Assembly: GCF_900445265.1 (NCBI RefSeq) | Contig: NZ_UFTA01000002.1 | Location: forward strand, 248,001-312,000 | Direction of reading: 5' to 3' | Length of the DNA stretch: 64,000 nucleotides | Source of the DNA: Anaerococcus octavius | Lineage (GTDB): Bacteria > Bacillota > Clostridia > Tissierellales > Peptoniphilaceae | Part shown: positions 15,237-30,799 of the stretch, in pieces | Layout: every line of letters starts with the position of its first letter | How positions within the stretch are numbered: the stretch's first letter is position 1 | Program-made: the position numbers and the translations under genes | The notes under the pieces: model-generated | Database searches by the model: none | The model's input: only the letters and a program-made list of their open reading frames with translations | What the model was told of the DNA's origin: nothing

Positions 15237-15959
15237 ATGAAAATAATTATTTCACCTGCAAAAAGTTTTAAAAAAAATGAAGGAATAGATACCTATAATT
15301 TACTATTTCCTGAAAAAACAAAAATTTTAGTAGATAAACTAAAAAAATATACTATGAATGAAATTGGTAATCTTAATAGAACAAATGATAAGCTAACAGA
15401 AAAAGCTTACTATGATTACCAAGAATTTGACTTTAATAATTTAAATAATCCTGCTATTTTTGCCTATGATGGCTTAGTATTTAAGCAATTTAATAAAGAT
15501 GATTTTGATGATTTAGAGTATTTAAATGATCATGTTTACATAATATCTGCTCTTTATGGTTTATTAAAACCCTTAACAGCTATAGCAGACTACAGATTAT
15601 ATTTTGATAACTCTGATATGAATTTATACAAGTTTTGGGGCAAAGATTTATATGATGAATTATTTAAAAACGATGAATTAGTTATAAATTTAGCTAGTAA
15701 AGAATATACAAAGACCATAAGACCATTTTTAGGAAAAAATGATAGATTTATAAGTTTAAATTTTAAGGATGATAAGGATGGGAAATTGCGCTCATATACA
15801 GCTTGGATGAAACAGGCTAGAGGAGAGATGCTTAAAACAATTATTCAAAAAAAGATTGAAGATCCAGACGATATAAAAAAACTTATAGTAAATAATTACA
15901 AATATGATCCATATAACTCAACTGAAAGTGAATATGTATTTATAAGGAGTCATTCATGA
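15237..15959 (+). CDS. yaaA: YaaA family peroxide-stress / DNA-binding protein
   Basis: 240 residues, close to the usual YaaA length. The family start MKIIISPAKSF and the later blocks LTEKAYYDYQEF, AIFAYDGLVFKQF, YIISALYGLLKPL and NLASKEYTKTI are easily recognised. In E. coli YaaA lowers damage by peroxide by limiting free iron, and the fold binds nucleic acid; the exact mechanism is not settled. GGAGG precedes the ATG. The stop overlaps the sbcD start (ATGA), placing it as the first gene of a DNA-end-processing operon, which fits a role in oxidative DNA damage. Confidence 0.9.
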   Translation: MKIIISPAKSFKKNEGIDTYNLLFPEKTKILVDKLKKYTMNEIGNLNRTNDKLTEKAYYDYQEFDFNNLNNPAIFAYDGLVFKQFNKDDFDDLEYLNDHVYIISALYGLLKPLTAIADYRLYFDNSDMNLYKFWGKDLYDELFKNDELVINLASKEYTKTIRPFLGKNDRFISLNFKDDKDGKLRSYTAWMKQARGEMLKTIIQKKIEDPDDIKKLIVNNYKYDPYNSTESEYVFIRSHS

Positions 15960-17056
15960 GATTGCTCCACCTAGCAGATTTACACTTAGGAAAATATATT
16001 GGAAATTATTCTCTAATAGAAGATCAAAAATATGCCATAGATCAAATATTAAATATAATCGATGAAAAAAAAGTAGATGTAGTAATGATAGCAGGAGATA
16101 TTTTTGATACCTCTGTTGCAAGTGTCGATGGACTTAAACTTTATTCTGACTTTATAGATGAGATTATTTTTAAAAGACAGAAGCCAGTCTTAGCTATAAG
16201 TGGTAACCATGATTCTGCCAAAAGATTAGATATAAACAATAAATTTTTTGCAGAACATAATTACCATCTATATGGAGAATACAAGGATGAAGTGGTAAGT
16301 CTAGAGGATGAGTATGGCAAAATAAACTTTCACCTAATACCATATATTTCCCTAAATCAAGCTAAAGTATTATTTGATGATAAGATAGATAATTTTACTG
16401 ACCTTTATAGTTATCTACTAAAAGATAAATCTTATGAGGGTAGAAATGTCCTAATTACCCATTGCTATGCAAATAATGTAGGAATAGAAAGTGAGGATGC
16501 CTATAATGAAGGGCAAAAACCCCTTATAATTGGTGGGTCTGATGCCATGGATGGGCATCTTTTTTTAAACTTTGATTATGTGGCTCTAGGACATTTACAC
16601 GGCAAGCATTTTGTAATTGATCCAAAAATTAGATATTCAGGAACATTTATGAAATATTCATTTGATGAAACAAAGACTAGTAAAAGCGTAACCATTGTTG
16701 ATATAACTGATGATGTAAATACTTTTGATGTTGAAATAAAACCTTTAAGAGATTTTAGGATAATAGATGGTAAATTTGATGACATAATAAAAATGGCAAA
16801 AAATGATGATTACATAAAATTTATTTTAGAAGATGATCATACAGTTGATAATGCTATGAGTAAATTAAAAGAAATATTCCCACATGCAGTTCAAATTACT
16901 TATAAAAATAGTGGAATATTTAATGCAACAAGTGATTTAAATTTGGATTTGGAAAATAAAACTACCATAGAACTTTTTAAAGAGTTTTATAAATATAAAA
17001 TGGATGAAGAAATTAGCAAAGAAGAACTAGAAATAATAGGAAGGATCGTTGAATGA
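15956..17056 (+). CDS. sbcD: Exonuclease subunit SbcD (Mre11-type nuclease)
   Basis: 366 residues with the five Mre11/SbcD phosphoesterase blocks: LHLADLHLGK, VVMIAGDIFDT, AISGNHDS, LITHCYANN and ALGHLHGKHF, which bind two manganese ions. With SbcC it forms a nuclease that cuts hairpins, palindromes and protein-blocked DNA ends. The ATGA overlaps on both sides (with yaaA and sbcC) show tight translational coupling. Confidence 0.95.
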   Translation: MRLLHLADLHLGKYIGNYSLIEDQKYAIDQILNIIDEKKVDVVMIAGDIFDTSVASVDGLKLYSDFIDEIIFKRQKPVLAISGNHDSAKRLDINNKFFAEHNYHLYGEYKDEVVSLEDEYGKINFHLIPYISLNQAKVLFDDKIDNFTDLYSYLLKDKSYEGRNVLITHCYANNVGIESEDAYNEGQKPLIIGGSDAMDGHLFLNFDYVALGHLHGKHFVIDPKIRYSGTFMKYSFDETKTSKSVTIVDITDDVNTFDVEIKPLRDFRIIDGKFDDIIKMAKNDDYIKFILEDDHTVDNAMSKLKEIFPHAVQITYKNSGIFNATSDLNLDLENKTTIELFKEFYKYKMDEEISKEELEIIGRIVE

Positions 17057-20000
17057 AGCCTATAAAATTAGAGTTTAGAGGATTTATAACCTATAAAGAA
17101 AAAATAGAAATAGATTTTACTAGGCTATATAATAAAAAAATATTTATTATTTCGGGAGATACAGGTTCTGGAAAAACAAGCATATTTGACGCTATAAGCT
17201 TTGCTCTTTATGGAAAAACATCTCGAAATATACCTATGGAAAAGCTTAGGTCAGATTACCTTTCTACTAAAGATTTATACACTTATGTGATACTTACTTT
17301 TGAAGTAGATAATAAAGTTTATGAAATAGAAAGAATACCTTCTCAAATAGCAAAAAAATCAAAAGTAAACCAAGATATAAAACATTCAGCAAGTCTTTAT
17401 GAGATAAGTGATGAAAAAATATTATTAGCTGAAAAAATAGGAAATGTTGAAAATGAAGTCATAAATATAATTGGTCTAGATAAAGATCAATTTACAAAGG
17501 TAATGCTATTGGCTCAAGGAGAATTTCAACAATTTCTTCACTCTAGTTCTAAGGAGCGTACAGAGCTTTTAGGAAAAATTTTCAAAACTGACCAGTATAA
17601 AAATATCCAAGAACTTATAAAAGAAAAATCACTCGCTAGTAAAAAAGAGCTAGATTTTATAGATAAAAATTTACAAAATGAAATAGTAAAAGATATTGAG
17701 ATAGAAGAAGCTATAGATAGTAGTGAGAAAATCACCCATGATTTCGATCAAATGGTTAAAAAAATTGAAAATATTAATTACAAATATGATAAAGCTTTAA
17801 AAAGCAAAAAAGAAAGCTATGAAAGAAAAAATCAAATATATACATCACTTTTAAAACAAAGAGAGATGGATAAAAATTTAAATGAAAATATCCTCAAATT
17901 TCAAAAAGTAAGTGCGGATTTAAAAGAAAAACAAAAGCAAGAAAGCTATTATAAAGATCTTAGAGAAAAAAGTGAAAAGTCAGCTTTTGCAAAAAATATA
18001 AAAATAATTGAAGATAATTTAGATAAGATAAAAAAAGAATTATCAGTTAATAAAAGTAGATTAGAAAAAGCTAATGAATTACTAGAAAAATATAAGAAAG
18101 AAATAGCAGCTAGCAATAAAGAGATTTCTGCTATAGATGATAAAAGTAATAAATTAGATGCATTAAAAATAAAAAGAACAAAGCTAGTAGAATCTATAAG
18201 AGAACTTAAAGAGTTTAAAGAAAAAGAGAAGGAATACTTACAAATAGAAAAAGATCTATCAAAAATAGATCGGATTGTTAAAGAAAATGATAAACTAAAA
18301 GAAAATTTAGAAAAAATTAGAAAAGACCTATATGAATTAAATGATAATCTTGATGAAAAGAGAAATGAAAAACTATCCATAGAAAAAAATCTCTCTGAAT
18401 TAAAAGATAGGAAAAAAGAAATAAATGATGCATTAGACTTATATAAGAAAAACCAGGATATATTAGAAAAAATAAATCAAAATGACAAACTATTAATTAG
18501 TAAAGAAAATGAACAAGCAAAATTACTAGATCAAGTAAAAATCTTCGAGCAAAATCGTAAAATAATTGAAATAAATAAGCTCATAGATGATATAAACAAA
18601 ACAGGAACTTGTCCAGTATGTGGAGATAAACACGACAAGCACTTTAAAAAATTACAAGTTAGCAATGTAGATATAGATTTAGTAAATAAAAATTTAAATA
18701 ATATAAATAAAGAGATAACAAAAATAAAAACACAAAATCAGCTATATAAAGAATCAATTATTGAAACTAAGTCATTAGATAAGATAATAGCTGAAAAATA
18801 TAATATAGAAGTTGAAATTAACAATATAAATAAAGAAAAAGAAAATTTAGAAAAAACAATAGAAAAGTTTTTATCGATAAAGCAGGATAAAGAAAATATA
18901 TCAGTTAATTATTCATATGATATTGAAAAAAATACTAAAATATTAGATAACTTAAAATTAAAAACTAAAGACTCAGAAGACTTGAAAATTTACTATCAAT
19001 TAAATAAAGAAAAAATGCAAAATCTTGATATAAATGAACTTAATAAAAATTTAGATGAAATAGATGAGCAAATAAATTCCTTAGATATTTATATAAGAGA
19101 AGTAAATCAAAGGCACAACAATTTATTAAAACAACAAGTAAAAATTCAAACAGAGATTGGAAATTATAAGACAAATATAGAAAAAGCTAAGGAAAATATA
19201 TTTACTATCAAAAAAGATTTAGCCGGTAGGATTGGTGAAAAATTTATTGATTACAGTGAATATAAGACATATCTTTCTTACTATGATGAAATTCAAAACA
19301 AGCTAGAGCAGGTAGATGCGTATTTTAAAGCTTTGGATGAACTTAAAATCAATTATAAAAACTTAAAAGTATATGAAGGCAAGCAATTAGCTAATCTAGA
19401 TAGTATTGAAGAAAAAATAAATGATGCTTATGAAAATTTAAATACATTAAATGAAGAAATTTCAAATGTTAAAGTAAAAATTATATCCATAAGTTTGATA
19501 CTAGAAAATATACAAAAACTAGAAAAAAAATATGAGAAATTATCTGATGAAAGTATAATTTTAGATAAACTTTCAGAAATTTCTAATGGAGCTACTGGGA
19601 AAGTAGCTGGTAGGCAAAAAATAGATTTTCAAACATTTGTCCTAACTTACTACTTTGATAGGGTCCTAAATTATGCAAACAAAAGACTTTTACAAATGTC
19701 TAACGGTCAATTTACAATGGCTAGAACATCTGAAGGGCAAAATTTAAGATCTCAATCAGGATTAGATATAGAAATTTTGGATGCCAATACTGGAAAAACT
19801 CGACCAGCATCAACTCTTTCTGGTGGAGAATCATTTTTAGCTTCTCTGTCACTTGCCCTGGGCTTATCAGATGAGATAAGTGCAGAAAATGGAGGTATTA
19901 CTATTGATACTTTGTTTATAGATGAAGGATTTGGGACCTTATCTGATGATTATTTATCAAAAGTAATAGAGCAAATAGAAAAACTTTCTTATGACGATAA

Positions 20001-20109
20001 ATTTGTAGGTCTAATTAGTCATGTAAGTGAGCTAAAAGATGCCATTGATGGCAAAATATTAGTTTCTTATAAAGAAGATAGGGGAAGTAGCTTAGAGGTA
20101 ATAGCATGA
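17053..20109 (+). CDS. sbcC: Exonuclease subunit SbcC (Rad50-type ATPase)
   Basis: 1018 residues. Walker A is SGDTGSGKTSIFDAI at about 30-45, followed by long Lys/Glu-rich coiled coils, a zinc hook CPVC near residue 520 (GTCPVCGDKH), the return coiled coil, and the C-terminal head with signature LSGGESFLASLSLALGLS and Walker B TLFIDEGFGTL. ATP binding by the head dimer controls SbcD nuclease access to DNA ends. It overlaps sbcD and addB by four bases each, making a single translational chain. Confidence 0.95.
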   Translation: MKPIKLEFRGFITYKEKIEIDFTRLYNKKIFIISGDTGSGKTSIFDAISFALYGKTSRNIPMEKLRSDYLSTKDLYTYVILTFEVDNKVYEIERIPSQIAKKSKVNQDIKHSASLYEISDEKILLAEKIGNVENEVINIIGLDKDQFTKVMLLAQGEFQQFLHSSSKERTELLGKIFKTDQYKNIQELIKEKSLASKKELDFIDKNLQNEIVKDIEIEEAIDSSEKITHDFDQMVKKIENINYKYDKALKSKKESYERKNQIYTSLLKQREMDKNLNENILKFQKVSADLKEKQKQESYYKDLREKSEKSAFAKNIKIIEDNLDKIKKELSVNKSRLEKANELLEKYKKEIAASNKEISAIDDKSNKLDALKIKRTKLVESIRELKEFKEKEKEYLQIEKDLSKIDRIVKENDKLKENLEKIRKDLYELNDNLDEKRNEKLSIEKNLSELKDRKKEINDALDLYKKNQDILEKINQNDKLLISKENEQAKLLDQVKIFEQNRKIIEINKLIDDINKTGTCPVCGDKHDKHFKKLQVSNVDIDLVNKNLNNINKEITKIKTQNQLYKESIIETKSLDKIIAEKYNIEVEINNINKEKENLEKTIEKFLSIKQDKENISVNYSYDIEKNTKILDNLKLKTKDSEDLKIYYQLNKEKMQNLDINELNKNLDEIDEQINSLDIYIREVNQRHNNLLKQQVKIQTEIGNYKTNIEKAKENIFTIKKDLAGRIGEKFIDYSEYKTYLSYYDEIQNKLEQVDAYFKALDELKINYKNLKVYEGKQLANLDSIEEKINDAYENLNTLNEEISNVKVKIISISLILENIQKLEKKYEKLSDESIILDKLSEISNGATGKVAGRQKIDFQTFVLTYYFDRVLNYANKRLLQMSNGQFTMARTSEGQNLRSQSGLDIEILDANTGKTRPASTLSGGESFLASLSLALGLSDEISAENGGITIDTLFIDEGFGTLSDDYLSKVIEQIEKLSYDDKFVGLISHVSELKDAIDGKILVSYKEDRGSSLEVIA

Positions 20110-23100
20110 TAAATACAATTATTTCAAAATCAGCTTATGCAAATAGCATGTATACTTACAAAAAAATCGAAGAAAACTTAGACAATAAGCAGAAAGCTTT
20201 TTTAATTGTTCCTGAACAGTATACACTCCAATCAGACATAAATCTTATCGATAATATTTCTTATAATACTGCTATGGATGCTAAAGTTCTCTCATTTTCA
20301 TCTCTAGCAAGATTTATAATTGATAGGACAGGAGGGCTTTCAGATAATATTTTAACTAAATCTGGCAAGATTATAATGCTAAGTAATGTTTTAAGAGATA
20401 TAAATGGTGATCTAACTCTTTTTAAAGATAAGTACAATAATATTGATTTTATAAATGATATAGAATCAATAATTACCAACATAAAAGATAATAATTTTGA
20501 CCAGACTTTTTACCAAAATATAGAATCCAATTTAGATGATGAAATATTAAAATTAAAATTTAAAGAAATAAAGCTAATCTATGAAGCCTACCAAAGGGAA
20601 ATAAATGATAAGTACCTAGATTCAGAAGATAAGCTAAATCAAGTAATAACTAGACTTTCTAGCTGTGAATTTTTTAAGGATGCTTACTTTTATTTTGATA
20701 AATTTGACTATCTTTCAGATATAAAGATGGATTTTATATCTGAGTTATTAAATCTTGGAGCTAAAGTCAGCGTCACTCTTACCTTAGATAAAACTTTTAT
20801 AGATAATCCCATGGCAAAGGACTTAGAAATATATGATATGTCCAATAAATTCTATTATAGGCTAAAGGATATAGATCAAATAAATGAAATAAATATAGGC
20901 GGAAGAATAAATAAGCATAACGATATCAATCATCTTTGTACAAATTTTGAAAGGTATAATCCACTTTTCTTTAAAGGAAATCCAGCGAATGTTCATTTAA
21001 TTGAGTCTATATCAAGTAAAACTGAAGTGGAAAATGTTGCTCTCATAATAAATAAGCTTATATATGAAAATAATTTACGTTACAAAGACATATCAATATA
21101 TATTTCTGATGCTAGCCAATATGAAAACGAAATCAATAAAATTTTTAATAGATATAATATTCCGGTTTTTTTAGATAAAATAAATAAGCTTTCAGATAAT
21201 CATATAGTTAGAAGTTGGCTAGCAGCGTTTAGACTTGTTATCTATGACTTTAATGTACATGATTTATCTTACTTTTTAAGGTCAAATATTTTTGATTTTG
21301 GACCAAATGGCGTTGATAAAATAATTATTTTTCAAAATTATATAATTAGTAGAAAAATAAAGGGATCAATGTTTTTAGAAGATAAGTATTTTGAGATTGA
21401 CATAGACTTTTATAAAAATTTATATAAAGATAATCCATTTGCTGATGATAAATTGCTTTATAAAATTAATGAAGAAAAAATTGTAAAAGAAATTAGAAAA
21501 AAAGTTTTAGATCTTTTAGGAGATCTTATATCAATAAAAGAAAAAGAAATAGCTAAAAGCTCAGATATAATAATCGCTGTTTATAAATTAATAAGCAATG
21601 AAGGATTTATAAAAGGAATTAATAATTATCAAAATATTCTTTTAGAAGAAGGAGATTTGGATGATTATAATCAAAATGACCAAGTTTGGGACAAGTTTGT
21701 TTCTATACTTGAAGAACTTATGAATCTAATGGCAGATAGAAAGTCCACATTAAAATCAATTTATAATATAATTTTATCCACTGCAAATGATATGGAAATA
21801 GGCACCATACCTCCAAGTAAGGATCATGTTATAGTAACAAATTTTAAAAGACCTCGAGTTTCACAAAGACCTATAAATTTTGCATTAGGATTAAATGATA
21901 CATTTTTTCCATCAAAATCGAATGGAGATTTTTTAATAGGAAAAGACGATAAGGATAAATTGACAGAGCTAAATCTAGATTTAAAAATATATGAGGAAGA
22001 TATAGAAGAAAGAGAAAAATTAAATCTTTATAAGATGATGAGTATATCTGATAAACTATATCTATCTTTTGCCCTAAGTGATAAGGATGGGGCAGCTATA
22101 AATAAATCTATAGTTTTAAATGATATTTTAAAAATATTTCCTGAAATAGAGATAACAGATCTAACAACTTTGCCATTAAGTGAAAGTATATATTCTAAAG
22201 AAGTCTCAAAAAAGTATGCTATGGATGTGCTTTGGAGGGTACGCAAAGGTGAAAAAGTAACAGAAAATGATCTTAAATTTACTAAGTCTTATTTATCATA
22301 TTTAAAATCATATGGTGATTTTCAAACCGTGGTAGATGGTCTATACTATAGCAACAATAAAAATAATTTGACATTAACTAATGCAAGTAAACTATATCCC
22401 AAAAATCACTTCAATGTTACGGAGATAGAAACATACTCAAAATGTCCATATAGATACTTTGTAAACTTTGGAATAAAACCATATTATGACGAAAACTATG
22501 ATGTAGATGCTAGAGAATTGGGATCTATAGTTCATACATCCTTAGAAGATGTATCAAGATTGATAAAAGATGAAGATATAGAAAAGATAACTAGCGAGCA
22601 ATTAGATGAGCTAATAATAGAGAATTTCAATACAAGTGTTGATAATTACCTAGATATGACCCGTAAAAATGATCCACGTAATAGATTTATTTTAAATAAT
22701 ATTATAAAAAATACTAAAAATAACTCGAGAGAACTTATAAATCAACTTAAAAAAGGTGAGTTTAAAGTTTCTGATGTAGAAGTGGACTTTGGTTATAATA
22801 AAGAAAATGATTTGCCTGGAGTGTATGTAGATGACAAAAATTATTTAAGGGGCAGAATTGATAGGATAGATAAAGCAAATAATTATTTAAGAATAATTGA
22901 CTATAAAACAGGCAAAAAAGTATTTAAAATCGTAAATATTTTAAATGGTTTAGATTTGCAACTTTTAGTTTATATGATGAGCGCAAGCAGTCTAAGCGAT
23001 ACAATTACTCCTATAGGCTCATTTTATATGCCCCTATCAGATGAGCTAGAAAAAATGAAAGATACTTACGAAAAATCTAATATTGAGAAAATTTATGAAG

Positions 23101-23474
23101 ATAAGTTTAAAATGAATGGATTAGTAGTAAAAGTAAATGAGGAAGTATTTAAACTAATAGATAAGGAAAATTTTGATAGCAAAAACATTGGAGTAATAGA
23201 TATTAAAAATACTGATATTTTAACAAAAGAAGAGGAACAAGTAGTAAATAATTTTGCAAAAGAACTAATCAGTAAATATATCAAAGAGATTAAAATAGGA
23301 AATATAAAACTTAATCCAATAAGATATAATGAAAGCCAAAATGAATGTCAGTATTGTGATTTTAAAGGCATATGTAAGTTTGATGAGAGCATAGACACCG
23401 ATAAATATAGGGATTTTGATAGCAAAAAAACTATAAGTGATCTTTATAAAAGTACGGAGGATCTAGATGAGTGA
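20106..23474 (+). CDS. addB: AddB / RexB subunit of the ATP-dependent helicase-nuclease
   Basis: 1122 residues. Recognised by AFLIVPEQYTLQSD near the N terminus, VTNFKRPRVSQRP in the middle, and the C-terminal RecB-type nuclease domain (GRIDRID, then IIDYKTGKK) framed by the iron-sulfur cysteines: one in SKCPYRYF and three in CQYCDFKGIC. AddAB processes double-strand breaks to give a 3' single strand for RecA. Many AddB proteins begin with a P-loop (GRxGSGKT); here the equivalent stretch is IISKSAYANSMYTYKKI, with no P-loop, as I recall for the RexB subtype. It overlaps sbcC by four and addA by eight bases. Confidence 0.92.
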   Translation: MINTIISKSAYANSMYTYKKIEENLDNKQKAFLIVPEQYTLQSDINLIDNISYNTAMDAKVLSFSSLARFIIDRTGGLSDNILTKSGKIIMLSNVLRDINGDLTLFKDKYNNIDFINDIESIITNIKDNNFDQTFYQNIESNLDDEILKLKFKEIKLIYEAYQREINDKYLDSEDKLNQVITRLSSCEFFKDAYFYFDKFDYLSDIKMDFISELLNLGAKVSVTLTLDKTFIDNPMAKDLEIYDMSNKFYYRLKDIDQINEINIGGRINKHNDINHLCTNFERYNPLFFKGNPANVHLIESISSKTEVENVALIINKLIYENNLRYKDISIYISDASQYENEINKIFNRYNIPVFLDKINKLSDNHIVRSWLAAFRLVIYDFNVHDLSYFLRSNIFDFGPNGVDKIIIFQNYIISRKIKGSMFLEDKYFEIDIDFYKNLYKDNPFADDKLLYKINEEKIVKEIRKKVLDLLGDLISIKEKEIAKSSDIIIAVYKLISNEGFIKGINNYQNILLEEGDLDDYNQNDQVWDKFVSILEELMNLMADRKSTLKSIYNIILSTANDMEIGTIPPSKDHVIVTNFKRPRVSQRPINFALGLNDTFFPSKSNGDFLIGKDDKDKLTELNLDLKIYEEDIEEREKLNLYKMMSISDKLYLSFALSDKDGAAINKSIVLNDILKIFPEIEITDLTTLPLSESIYSKEVSKKYAMDVLWRVRKGEKVTENDLKFTKSYLSYLKSYGDFQTVVDGLYYSNNKNNLTLTNASKLYPKNHFNVTEIETYSKCPYRYFVNFGIKPYYDENYDVDARELGSIVHTSLEDVSRLIKDEDIEKITSEQLDELIIENFNTSVDNYLDMTRKNDPRNRFILNNIIKNTKNNSRELINQLKKGEFKVSDVEVDFGYNKENDLPGVYVDDKNYLRGRIDRIDKANNYLRIIDYKTGKKVFKIVNILNGLDLQLLVYMMSASSLSDTITPIGSFYMPLSDELEKMKDTYEKSNIEKIYEDKFKMNGLVVKVNEEVFKLIDKENFDSKNIGVIDIKNTDILTKEEEQVVNNFAKELISKYIKEIKIGNIKLNPIRYNESQNECQYCDFKGICKFDESIDTDKYRDFDSKKTISDLYKSTEDLDE

Positions 23475-24111
23475 CATAGTTTATACACCAGACCAGCAAA
23501 AGGCTATAAGCCAGAGAAATAAAAATATAATAATTTCAGCAGCCGCTGGTTCTGGAAAAACAAGAGTTCTAGTTGATAGGGTAATTAGTCTTATGTTGGA
23601 TGAAAAAGTTCCTATAGATAAGATGATTATAGTTACATTTACTAATAAAGCATCTATAGAAATGAAAGATAGGATAAGGTCTTCCTTAGAAAATAGTATA
23701 AAAAATGATCCCACAAATAAATTTTTAAAAGATCAACTAAAATTACTAAAACACGCTCATATCCAAACTCTGCATTCTTTTGCTTCAGATATGCTTAGAG
23801 AATATTTTTATTACTTTGATAATCTTAGTCCAAATTTTAGTATTATCAGTGAAAATTCCAATGTAATATTAAAAGAAGAGACAATAGAAGAAGTTTTCGA
23901 TGAAGAATATTCAAAGGGAAGTCCAGAATTTCATAACTTTATCCACAATTTCGCAAGTAGCCGCAGTGATAGAGATGCTAAGTCAGTTATTTTAAAAACT
24001 TATGATAAATTGGCTTCACAAATAGATTCTTTAGCTTGGCTTGATAATAAAACACAAAGTCCTTTTGATTTTAATATATTCCAAGAAATAATCAGAAAAA
24101 AGTTGACTTAA
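23467..24111 (+). CDS. addA: AddA / RexA helicase-nuclease, N-terminal part, broken or frameshifted at 24096-24102
   Basis: 214 residues in this frame, carrying only the start of AddA: the Q-motif region YTPDQQKAI, Walker A SAAAGSGKT and motif Ia VTFTNKAS, then AHIQTLHSFASDMLREYF. The frame ends in TAA at 24109-24111, while AddA sequence continues without a break in the -1 frame from GTT at 24102. The joint is A AAA AAG (24096-24102), read in the zero frame as AGA AAA AAG: the same heptamer and phase that directs -1 slippage in E. coli dnaX. Possible explanations are programmed frameshifting, a natural one-base loss in a six-A tract, or a sequencing/assembly error. The 214-residue piece alone could not be a helicase. 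Confidence 0.85.
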   Translation: MSDIVYTPDQQKAISQRNKNIIISAAAGSGKTRVLVDRVISLMLDEKVPIDKMIIVTFTNKASIEMKDRIRSSLENSIKNDPTNKFLKDQLKLLKHAHIQTLHSFASDMLREYFYYFDNLSPNFSIISENSNVILKEETIEEVFDEEYSKGSPEFHNFIHNFASSRSDRDAKSVILKTYDKLASQIDSLAWLDNKTQSPFDFNIFQEIIRKKLT

Positions 24112-26837
24112 TAATCGAAGATATTAGTAAAAATAAAGATATTGCTAGAGAAAATAATTTGCGTGTAGAATATGAAGAGATATTAGAGGATGATTATATC
24201 CTTGTAAATAACTTAAATCAGTTAATATTTACCAACTGGGACTTATTTATAGAAAAAGTAAATAAGGCAAAATTTGCAACCATGGTAAGGGCTCGTAAAG
24301 ATGAAAAAGACATCCAAGCTATTATAAAAAATAATAGAGACCTTTATAAAAAAGAATTAAAAAATATAAGCTCCCTAGTTATAAATACAAATTCTAATAT
24401 TATAAGTGAATTCAGCAAAAAAGAAGTAAATGTCCTTAAAGAGATTAATTATTTGACAAAAAGATTTATTAAAAAATATCAAGCAAAAAAGGATGATAAA
24501 TCTTATCTTGATTTTAATGATATAGAAGCAGAGTTTATAAAATTAATCGATAATGATGAAGCTAATCAAATATTAAAAGAAAGATTTGCTTATATATTTT
24601 TCGATGAATATCAGGACAGTAACGAAATTCAAAACTATATCATTGAAAAACTAAAAAGAGATAATAATTTATTTTTTGTAGGAGATGTAAAGCAATCTAT
24701 ATATGGTTTTAGGCGTGCTGAGCCTCAGCTTTTTTTAGACAAACTTGAATCATATGATAGTGATGAAAATAAAGATTCTATTAGAATAAACCTTAATGAA
24801 AACTTTAGAACAGATAAAGATATTATAAAATTTGTAAACTATATTTTTGATAGGCTAATGACCAAAGACTATTCTGTAATAGATTATAAAAATGGTGGCC
24901 ATAGATTAAATGCAATTAAGGAATTTGAAAACGCAAAGCCTAAATCAGAAGTCCATGTTTTGGATGAAAAATTAAAAGAAGAAAGACATTTAGTAAGTGT
25001 AATAGAAAATTTAATAAATGAAGGATATAAATATAAGGACATTGCCATACTATTAAGAAGTGGATCAAAGTCTTATTTATATGAAAATGCCTTTAAAAAA
25101 GCAGGAATTCCTTTTTTTAACGACATTAGTAAAGTTTCTTTTGGGGCAGTAGAAGTAACATTTTTTATAAATATACTAAAATTAATTGCAAATCCAAAAG
25201 ATGATATAACTCTTTTATCGGTTATTCGCAGTGATATATATAAATTTAGCGAAGATGATATAGCTACTATTAGATTAAGTAAAAAATATGCTAAATTTTA
25301 TGAAGCTTTTGAAAATTATGAGCAAGATGATGAAATATTAACAAAAATAAATGACTTTAAAACTATCTACAATGATTTTACCTACCAGTTATCTTTGATG
25401 AACCTATATGAATTTGGAAATTATATATTTGAAAATTCTAAATTTTACGATTTTTTAATGGCTAGAGATAGGGCTATCGATAGGATAGAAAATGTAGAGG
25501 CTTTTATAGATTTGATGAGTGATTATGAAGCTAATAATGACAATGGCTTATATGGATTTTTAGATTATATTCAAAATTTATCTTTACACCAAACGGATAA
25601 TATAAATCCGGCTCGTGAATTGTCAGAAAATGAAAATCTAGTGAGGATAATGACTATTCATAAGTCAAAAGGCTTAGAATTTCCTGTAGTTATTTTAGCA
25701 GATACTAATAAAAGATTTAACAACAAACATCTAAGAGAAAGTGTAGTTTTTGATGATGATCTGGGTATTGGTATAAATATCGCTGACTATGAAAATAAAA
25801 TAAGGCTAAGTTCTTTAAAAAAAGACATAATTACTGAAAAAATGACTACAGATAATAAAAGAGAAGAGATGAGGGTATTATATGTAGCTCTAACCAGAGC
25901 TATAAATAAATTAATTATTGTTGGTAATAGAAATCTAAATACTGTTAATAAGTTAAATGGTAGAGATGATTATCTAAACATGTCAACTTATATGGATTGG
26001 ATATTAGTTAGCTTATCAGATGATAAAATAAGTTTAGATTTGCTAGAAAATGACTATGAAACTGATGAATTAAGTGAAGTTGCAAGTGTATTTGTTTTTA
26101 ATGAAGAAAGTAAATATGAAGTTAGTAAAGGTAACGATATTTCAGATATTTTATCAGCAAATGTTCACGATAATTTATATGATAAATTTGTAAATATTTT
26201 TACTAGACCTTATCCATATGAGGCTGATACCAGGGATTCTATAAAAAAATCAGTAACAGAAATTAGTAAAAATTTTAACCCAGAGGAAGATGGCTACGAG
26301 CTACCAAGATATAGTAAATTTGAAGCAAAATCTGACTTTAGAAAACCAAATTTTATTTCTGAAGTAAGAGAGTACAAGCCAACCGATAGGGGAACTATCA
26401 TACATAAAGTTTTTCAAGGGTTAAACTATCAAAAATATGATAGTAAAAGCCTAGCTAGAGCTTTGGATAGGTTAGTTATAGAAAATAAAATAACAAGAGA
26501 TGAATTAAAAGTCATAGAAGAAGAAAAAATAATAGCATATTTTAAAGATCTTTTAATAAAAAAACTCTACCAAAATGCAGCAAATATCAGAAAAGAAGAA
26601 ACTTTCTTGATGAAATATGAAGACTATTATGTAAATGGACAGATAGATATCATGTTTGAATTTGAAGATGAAATAGTCTTACTAGACTTTAAAACTGATA
26701 AAATAAAAAGAGAAGGTATCTATGATGACCAGCTAAAAATATACAAATTAGCTATTGAAGAAAGTTTAAAAAAACAAGTGAGTAAATCATATATTTATTG
26801 GTACAATTTTTCTGAGTTGGAAGAAGTAAATAAATAA
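24102..26837 (+). CDS. addA: AddA / RexA helicase-nuclease, C-terminal part (reached by -1 frame change)
   Basis: From GTT at 24102 the -1 frame reads VDLIIEDISK and onward for about 911 residues, completing AddA to about 1,123 residues, a usual length. Motifs are intact: Walker B FFDEYQDSNEIQ, VGDVKQSIYGFRRAEP (motif III), NENFRTDKDI (IV), TIHKSKGLEFPVV (V), RVLYVALTRA (VI) and the nuclease motif GQIDIMFEF...LLDFKTDK. No stop or further shift is seen, so decay is at most recent. A TTG at 24159 could serve as an internal start but has no good ribosome binding site. AddA is the leading SF1 motor and 3' strand nuclease of the complex. Confidence 0.85.
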   Translation, partial: VDLIIEDISKNKDIARENNLRVEYEEILEDDYILVNNLNQLIFTNWDLFIEKVNKAKFATMVRARKDEKDIQAIIKNNRDLYKKELKNISSLVINTNSNIISEFSKKEVNVLKEINYLTKRFIKKYQAKKDDKSYLDFNDIEAEFIKLIDNDEANQILKERFAYIFFDEYQDSNEIQNYIIEKLKRDNNLFFVGDVKQSIYGFRRAEPQLFLDKLESYDSDENKDSIRINLNENFRTDKDIIKFVNYIFDRLMTKDYSVIDYKNGGHRLNAIKEFENAKPKSEVHVLDEKLKEERHLVSVIENLINEGYKYKDIAILLRSGSKSYLYENAFKKAGIPFFNDISKVSFGAVEVTFFINILKLIANPKDDITLLSVIRSDIYKFSEDDIATIRLSKKYAKFYEAFENYEQDDEILTKINDFKTIYNDFTYQLSLMNLYEFGNYIFENSKFYDFLMARDRAIDRIENVEAFIDLMSDYEANNDNGLYGFLDYIQNLSLHQTDNINPARELSENENLVRIMTIHKSKGLEFPVVILADTNKRFNNKHLRESVVFDDDLGIGINIADYENKIRLSSLKKDIITEKMTTDNKREEMRVLYVALTRAINKLIIVGNRNLNTVNKLNGRDDYLNMSTYMDWILVSLSDDKISLDLLENDYETDELSEVASVFVFNEESKYEVSKGNDISDILSANVHDNLYDKFVNIFTRPYPYEADTRDSIKKSVTEISKNFNPEEDGYELPRYSKFEAKSDFRKPNFISEVREYKPTDRGTIIHKVFQGLNYQKYDSKSLARALDRLVIENKITRDELKVIEEEKIIAYFKDLLIKKLYQNAANIRKEETFLMKYEDYYVNGQIDIMFEFEDEIVLLDFKTDKIKREGIYDDQLKIYKLAIEESLKKQVSKSYIYWYNFSELEEVNK

Positions 26838-28543: not shown

Positions 28544-30799
28544 TTATTTTCTTTTTGAAGCAAATAATCCTGCACTTGCTAGGGAGAGTGCTGCATATAC
28601 ACCACTTAAGCTAGCTATACCTGTTTTAGGATTGTTAGATTTTTTAGCTTCTTTTATTTCTGCTTTTTTTATTTTTTTAGCTGCTTTTGGAGCTTTTACT
28701 TCTTTAACTTTTTTTGTGGTTTTAGAAGGACTTACTTTTTGATCTATCTTATTTTCACCAAGGAATTCTACATTTGAAAGTCTTGTATTTAAAACTTCGA
28801 TAGCTGCATCAACTTCTTCTTGTGATGTATAAGTAGAATTTAATACGTCTTCTGCTGATTGAATAGCTTCATTATAAGCTTCTATATTTTCTTTATTATC
28901 TACTACTTTTAGAGCCTTAGCTTGTTTAATAGAAGCTTCTAATTGGGATTTTGATGCTGATTTATCAAGCATATTTGGATTATTGATAAAGTCATCTGTT
29001 TTATGAATTGTATAAAAATCTACTATTTCGCCATATGGGTTCATAGTTTGAACATTGAATAGATTTTTTGTAAATGTTAGATTTGAGAATAATTGGCTTC
29101 TATCATCTAAGCTTCTTGCTACAAACCATTGGTCTTCACCAATTGGATTATAAAATTTAGATCCTGCAGATGTTGACATTGTTAAGAAAAGTGTTCCTCT
29201 TGGGTTTGTAACTTCTTTTTTATCAGCATCTAGTGAAATACCATCAACTACAACTTTTCCATTTTTATAAACTTTGTTGTTGTAAGTTTCTGAGAATCCA
29301 TCTTTAATACCTGCATTTTCATTTGATGGATCAGTTCCATATGCATCTTTGAATGATAGAGCTTGTTCACCAGCAATCATTTGTCCTGTTCTTGTATATA
29401 TATGATCGTGTCCGTTTAATACAACATCGATTCCATTTTCATTAAAGATTCTAACTAATTCGTGTCTTCTTTGGAGAATATCTTCATCTGAAGTATGTGT
29501 TGCTGTTGAGTAAGGAGCATGGTGGAATGATACTACCTTCCATGAATAGTTTTTGCCGTGTTCTTTTGTAGCTTTTGCTATTGCATCTTTTAAGAAAGCT
29601 TCATGTTCTTTTGAATCTTCAACATTTGAGTTTAGATTTAAGAATAATGTATCTCCATATGAATAGTAGTAGTCACCAGAAATATAAAAAGGTGTACCAT
29701 CTTCATTTATATTTGTAATAGAACCAAGTTTTGACTCATTTGGTAAGTAGAAATGATCTGAGAAAACAGTGTTTTGTTGGCTAGTATCATTTTTATCAAC
29801 ATATGTTTCATGGTTTCCTACTACAGTTGAGAAAATTCTTTCTCTAAATAAATCATTATCTAAGAAATAATCATATTCGCCTTCAAGACTTGAGATTTCT
29901 ACGTTATCACCCATTGATAGGTAAATATGTGGATCAAGTTCACGAGCTTTTTTTATAGTTTTTGCAAAGTCTATTTTATCTTGGTCAACTTTTGCTTGAG
30001 TGTTTTTATTAAGTCCTTTTGAATCCCAAACACTATCTCCAGAACCTATTTGTGGATCACCGAAGTAAGCTACTTTAAATTCATTATTTTTTCCTAGGGC
30101 TTTAGTTTTTAAAGTATATGTTTCGGAGACATATTTTCCTGTTTGTACGTAATATGAATAGGTATTTCCAGGAGTAATATTTGCTATAGCAGTATAAGTA
30201 CTATATCCGTTTGAATCACCAGTTTTTCTAGCTCTTATTACACTATATTCTTTTCCGCCAAAAAATAGTTTAGAACTAGAATTTGCATCACCTTTAGCAA
30301 ACCATGTAATAGCTACTTCATTTTCGTTTTTACCAGGATTTACAACTACATTTTTAATAGGTGTTGTAGTAGCTTTTAGGTTGTTGTCAGCATATTTTCC
30401 ACCTTTTTTACCGTATTCACCATCGGTTTCTTTTAGTTTTTTAGCAACTTCTGGGTCTATGTCATTTACATTTTTATCTTCACCAAAAGTATCTCTTTCT
30501 GTTTCGGTAGCTCTATTAAATTTGTTTGTTCCATCAGATTCTCTTACATTAGCTTCATTTTTTGGAAATGTAACCTCATCATCTGTGAAGTTCATGTAGT
30601 TATTTGATGAATATGTACTAGTTTCTAAATTTGTTTCTTCTGTGCTTAAATCATCTAGACTTTCTTTACTTTCTACTATAGCTTTTTCATTTTCAACTAA
30701 GGCATTTTCTTCTGCTGCATATGTATTTTGTACAGGGAAAATTGCAGCGGTTGCACTTGCTATAGCTAGGGCTAAAACTAATTTATTATTTTTTTTCAT
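28544..30799 (-). CDS. Cell-wall-anchored purple-acid-phosphatase-like metallophosphoesterase
   Basis: 751 residues. A signal peptide ends near NTYAAE (residues 25-31). After an acidic spacer there is a fibronectin-like N-terminal domain of purple acid phosphatases (about 130-230), then the metal-binding blocks AYFGDPQIGSG, SMGDNVE, VVGNHETY, SFHHAPYST and NGHDHIYTRT (about 245-480). A FIVAR-like helical module (about 640-700, including SYT-type sequence TYTSQEEVDAAIEVL) precedes a Lys-rich stretch and a sorting signal NPKTG, a hydrophobic segment and a KRK tail, a variant of LPxTG. It would be displayed on the wall, releasing phosphate or acting on nucleotides. AGGAGG lies before the ATG. 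Confidence 0.9.
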   Translation of the reverse strand: MKKNNKLVLALAIASATAAIFPVQNTYAAEENALVENEKAIVESKESLDDLSTEETNLETSTYSSNNYMNFTDDEVTFPKNEANVRESDGTNKFNRATETERDTFGEDKNVNDIDPEVAKKLKETDGEYGKKGGKYADNNLKATTTPIKNVVVNPGKNENEVAITWFAKGDANSSSKLFFGGKEYSVIRARKTGDSNGYSTYTAIANITPGNTYSYYVQTGKYVSETYTLKTKALGKNNEFKVAYFGDPQIGSGDSVWDSKGLNKNTQAKVDQDKIDFAKTIKKARELDPHIYLSMGDNVEISSLEGEYDYFLDNDLFRERIFSTVVGNHETYVDKNDTSQQNTVFSDHFYLPNESKLGSITNINEDGTPFYISGDYYYSYGDTLFLNLNSNVEDSKEHEAFLKDAIAKATKEHGKNYSWKVVSFHHAPYSTATHTSDEDILQRRHELVRIFNENGIDVVLNGHDHIYTRTGQMIAGEQALSFKDAYGTDPSNENAGIKDGFSETYNNKVYKNGKVVVDGISLDADKKEVTNPRGTLFLTMSTSAGSKFYNPIGEDQWFVARSLDDRSQLFSNLTFTKNLFNVQTMNPYGEIVDFYTIHKTDDFINNPNMLDKSASKSQLEASIKQAKALKVVDNKENIEAYNEAIQSAEDVLNSTYTSQEEVDAAIEVLNTRLSNVEFLGENKIDQKVSPSKTTKKVKEVKAPKAAKKIKKAEIKEAKKSNNPKTGIASLSGVYAALSLASAGLFASKRK

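Follow-up and report, generated by a model that had tools for sequence, protein, structure and literature searches.

Does the broken addA gene of this Anaerococcus genome reflect a frameshift that the organism carries or uses, or does the break exist only in the assembled sequence? The genome consists of two contigs (1.91-Mb), and the window, by which we mean the whole stretch of 64,000 nucleotides that was analysed, corresponds to positions 248001-312000 of contig 1. Its GC content is 26-35% in 4-kb steps when the rRNA operon is left aside. Four genes are arranged head to tail in the order sbcD, sbcC, addB, and addA. The first three, which we take to be sbcD, sbcC, and addB, are all unbroken, and the adjoining addA is split. 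The relevant features are as follows.

15956..17056, plus strand: sbcD, intact, first gene of the sbcD-sbcC-addB-addA cluster
17053..20109, plus strand: sbcC, intact, upstream in the addA cluster
20106..23474, plus strand: addB, intact, 1122 aa, overlapping the start of addA
23467..24111, plus strand: assembled 5' part of addA, 214 aa, encoding the first half of a UvrD-type helicase
24096..24102, plus strand: in-phase A AAA AAG heptamer on the six-A run, point of frame change
24102..26837, plus strand: 3' part of addA, read in the -1 frame, 911 aa, remaining helicase plus PD-(D/E)XK nuclease

The frame break is real as assembled. The zero frame reads AGA AAA AAG TTG ACT TAA (24094-24111), with the six As at 24096-24101, so that the TAA stop at the heptamer that had been described from the sequence alone is confirmed. 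The -1 frame is open from 24102 to 26837, which corresponds to 911 residues. That AddA continues in this frame had also been claimed, and this is borne out by matches of both parts to the NCBIfam AddA model TIGR02785 (202.9 bits for the N part and 534.2 bits for the C part; the cut-off of the model, 707.65 bits, is above the score of either part taken singly). The Pfam domain UvrD-helicase was found in the N part and the C part alike, and the latter also contains UvrD_C and PDDEXK_1. The gene thus has the UvrD helicase core and the C-terminal PD-(D/E)XK nuclease of AddA, with addB adjoining. A second in-phase A AAA AAG is located within addA at 24485, where the frame is unbroken. An exact search with 39 bases spanning the addA site matched 2 of 129 loci, both of them the window's own, and addA had no match in phage records.

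Each of the 30 further Anaerococcus genomes compared has addA, and in each of them the 5' and 3' parts are in one frame across the site. These genomes comprise 29 fetched addA loci, for which the ORF across the site was checked at the codon level, and genome G012, which was fetched separately and carries both parts within a single ORF of 1192 residues. For locus L032 and for G012 the matches end short of the site on both sides, and the in-frame call rests on the single open frame. Two loci (L030 and L031) are in one frame at the present site and have addA broken elsewhere. The nearest relatives among the Anaerococcus genomes compared are G023, which matches Anaerococcus sp. mt242 (86% identity over the AddA C part), and G011, which matches A. 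nagyae (74%). Both are devoid of an A-run at the site, the codons of G023 being AGG GAA AAG ATA GAC. Over the 56 kb of G023 that line up with the region, addA is the sole break (1 of 42 matched proteins).

A run of six to eight As is present at most nine codons from the site in 12 of the 29 relatives, all of which are unbroken across it. In 2/29, an in-phase A AAA AAG occurs at or near the site, namely at the identical codons in L015 (genome G021) and one codon upstream in L022 (genome G003). Neither is broken, which indicates that the heptamer can stand at this site without a frame change. The sequence-only reading had proposed to check whether heptamer and frame break are conserved in related species. 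They are not: the break, which should recur in relatives if this were a frameshift site, has 0/30 counterparts, and the two heptamers come without one.

The addA genes that are broken elsewhere belong to two assemblies which match A. hydrogenalis DSM 7454 (G002) and A. vaginalis PH9 (G029). They share one break, at an in-phase A AAA AAG located around residues 800-820 of the 911-aa part. Its position is about 3930-3960 in L030 and about 1700-1760 in L031. In A. vaginalis ATCC 51170 and in A. obesiensis, addA reads through at this second site. Other genes are affected as well: the addB gene of G002 is disrupted and that of G028 split, the addB match of G025 contains one stop, and the three assemblies G002, G028, and G029 each have a split sbcC. 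We considered, and rejected, a frameshift in addA that is conserved within Anaerococcus, because breaks in addB and sbcC also occur in these or in sister assemblies. The fact that several genes are broken in these assemblies points to assembly quality and shows that addA is not special.

The observation which raised the question is that addA is "split exactly at" a slippery heptamer. The location is correct, but the coincidence was overstated. In-phase A AAA AAG has 26 copies in 217 kb of long ORFs. When one base is removed in silico from A-runs of at least seven in these 217 kb, an in-phase A AAA AAG is left in 59 of 266 cases (22%); the corresponding figure over all A-runs of at least six is 59/742. 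Roughly every fifth one-base loss from a seven-A run thus produces the heptamer at the break, and frame breaks "at slippery sites" appear by phase arithmetic alone. We consider the coincidence of a break with A AAA AAG weak evidence of anything. Caution is warranted for AT-rich genomes in general, where seven suitably phased As before a G turn into A AAA AAG upon loss of a single A.

Other frame breaks in the same assembly were surveyed by searching 784 kb of it with the proteins from 640 kb of the relative G024. Of 356 matched proteins, seven were flagged. One flag was dropped as it concerned a spurious ORF in the rRNA operon, the window counterpart of which is inside the 23S gene, leaving 6/355 frame-broken. 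Besides addA and alaS, the latter identified also by TIGR00344, the broken genes are, judging by their sequences, presumably rsmD and those for an ABC transporter with a permease domain, a HAD hydrolase, and a 3-hydroxyacyl-CoA dehydrogenase. Five of the six breaks represent a net loss of one base, the run being left with six As (four cases) or six Ts (one case), and the heptamer is found at two of these five (addA and the 3-hydroxyacyl-CoA dehydrogenase gene). The sixth break, in the ABC transporter gene (911 aa in G024), is an insertion at a three-A run, with one base gained in net terms. This break, at about 222944-223035 of contig 1, is unlike the remaining ones.

With proteins from G023 and G011 as queries, 2/141 and 2/167 were broken, addA and alaS both times. 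The reciprocal surveys gave 0/367 in G024, 0/144 in G023, and 0/168 in G011 (pooled 0/679). Fisher's test results in p = 0.0016 for 6/355 against the pooled control, the counts of which are not independent because one and the same set of genes from a single genome served for the comparison with all three relatives, and in p = 0.014 for the G024 pair alone. Seven-base A/T runs number 115 per 100 kb in the assembly itself, 105 in G023, 109 in G011, and 59 in G024. Because G024 has only about half the run density, its zero taken alone is weak. Open ORFs of the assembly (678 kb) contain 781 seven-base A/T runs, so that most runs are evidently called correctly and any error rate must be low.

One of the other breaks is that in alaS. 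This gene is split between two frames at a six-A run (about 565585-568121 of contig 1; L190 and L191), and this run is not at a slippery heptamer. It is the only full-length-type copy in the genome, and the gene is whole in 30/30 other genomes of the genus. That the organism should have its single gene for alanyl-tRNA synthetase broken is difficult to believe. In E. coli, some activity is retained by N-terminal fragments of AlaS. A truncated AlaS might therefore be tolerated, and we regard the alaS break as strong, not absolute, evidence.

The absence of the addA break from relatives and the presence of several similar breaks in the same assembly, including the one in the single alaS, favor an error. 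We thus consider it likely, with a probability of roughly 0.7, that the frame break is a one-base homopolymer under-call in the consensus. One A would have been missed at the addA run, the organism itself would carry an unbroken addA, and normal full-length AddA would probably be made. The sequence-only reading had offered the loss of one base, by mutation or by sequencing error, as the simpler branch of its explanation. This branch gains support from the 30 unbroken relatives. Between its two versions, an error is the more likely, given that similar breaks are found in excess in other genes of the assembly, the single alaS among them.

Long-read assemblies typically retain errors in which a base is missing from a homopolymer and the reading frame is shifted; in one nanopore case A/T runs were the commonest place of error (PMC12007338, PMC8011154). 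The breaks reported here resemble these known indel errors in that they are mostly one-base net losses in A/T runs, are scattered over unrelated conserved genes, a normally essential one included, and are absent from relatives. They differ in their low rate and in that one of the six is an insertion. The attribution to an error is drawn from the consensus assembly of one strain.

Programmed -1 frameshifting of the type known from dnaX and insertion sequences would set the ratio of a 214-aa form to full-length AddA. The site does have the pattern X XXY YYZ in the zero frame followed by a long -1 ORF, and with the same heptamer in the same phase and a -1 frame that goes on it resembles E. coli dnaX. 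In dnaX, the shift yields the short product, while in addA it would yield the long one. Unlike the dnaX site, that of addA comes with neither an SD-like motif nor a hairpin as stimulator, the genome has two lysine tRNAs, and the break is not conserved. None of the motifs GAGG, GGAG, AGGA, GGNGG, and AGGKG (list from PMC4066793) occurs in the 30 nt before the heptamer plus the first base of the heptamer. Four segments of 61-120 nt, located at the site and downstream of it, fold more weakly than shuffled sequences (z +0.65 to +1.59; nested structures only), in line with the earlier remark that there is no strong hairpin just downstream. A downstream structure is absent from some known bacterial frameshift sites (PMC4066793). 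The shiftiness of A AAA AAG in E. coli stems from the weak pairing of AAG with the only lysine tRNA; with one tRNA per lysine codon AAG is expected to be held tightly (PMC5009743). The present genome encodes tRNA-Lys with anticodon TTT (L090) and also with CTT (L115); a single tRNA-Lys(UUU) aids shiftiness and is not strictly defining. The dnaX gene of the same genome is devoid of an in-phase A AAA AAG. Selection against A AAA AAG as a sign of slippage was likewise rejected, as the heptamer is not depleted (44 copies observed over 343 kb of ORFs, for which codon shuffles predict 48.4; z -0.64). The unbroken heptamers in L015 and L022 count against recoding as much as the A-runs make a real or technical slip plausible. 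With 30 relatives unbroken, no stimulator found, two lysine tRNAs, and a heptamer that is not avoided, we consider the programmed frameshifting which the sequence-only reading had offered very improbable.

A real, recent one-base deletion in the A-run of this strain, not selected as regulation, would be a more serious competitor, which we nevertheless consider unlikely. It would nearly abolish AddA, with slippage on A AAA AAG leaking a trace of full-length protein. The genome is AT-rich, its ORFs having 1592 A6 runs and 670 A7 runs over 678 kb, and A-runs are mutational hot spots. The nearest relatives have no run at the site, so that a break would be young, and the lack of decay fits this. 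Pseudogene decay was looked for and not seen in the 911-aa part, which has 38 amino acid changes on the window branch and 39 on the G023 branch (of 910) and a dN/dS of about 0.10, with dS over the compared genes being 0.8-1.8 and thus near saturation. For the 210-codon N part, the branch changes are 14 vs. 7, numbers too small to be given weight. As to the leak, the best V VVA AAG heptamers shift in E. coli at about 0.3% without stimulators and reach no more than about 3.7% with the most favorable 3' context (PMC4066793). What speaks against a deletion is that the assembly has several similar breaks, including that in the single alaS, with none in the three relatives surveyed, and that sbcD, sbcC, and addB beside addA are intact. 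It is very doubtful, as a special case of such a deletion, that the A-run indels in addA, alaS, and other genes exist in the organism and are tolerated genome-wide because RNA polymerase or ribosome slippage on A-runs yields full-length protein in sufficient amount. This would be akin to the transcript slippage of the insect endosymbionts Buchnera and Blochmannia (PMC5009743), transferred to a free-living AT-rich anaerobe. As in corrective ("savior") frameshifting (PMC5009743), slippage could partly compensate for a run indel; unlike there, both the indel and a slippage-dependent full-length product are hypothetical here. If indel and rescue by slippage were true, the dose of a main nuclease for double-strand-break repair would depend on slippage, and the evidence is against this. 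Least probable of all is phase variation, in which the length of the addA A-run would act as a reversible on/off switch. The breaks of addA in G002 and G029, which share an in-phase A AAA AAG elsewhere in the gene, and the A-runs close to the site in 12 of 29 relatives might be taken to favor it. Yet neighbouring genes are broken too in G002, G028, and G029, and place and length of the A-run at the site vary between species. Six or seven As are also short for a contingency locus. No paper was found that connects Anaerococcus, frameshift, and addA, and searches for ribosomal frameshifting with AddAB, or for addA with frameshift and homopolymer, returned nothing relevant, as judged from titles. 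A missed base in the consensus thus remains the explanation which we prefer.

Two further observations concern the gene neighborhood. The sbcC gene of genome G008 codes for a protein that is 62% identical to that from the window (17053-20109), with only 40-47% for AddB and 46% for the AddA C part, which looks as if an sbcC allele had been swapped between lineages. Downstream of addA, on the minus strand (28544-30799), a 751-aa protein is encoded that has an N-terminal signal-like stretch and the sequence NPKTG near its C end. From its translation, read by eye, it looks like a secreted, wall-anchored metallophosphatase.
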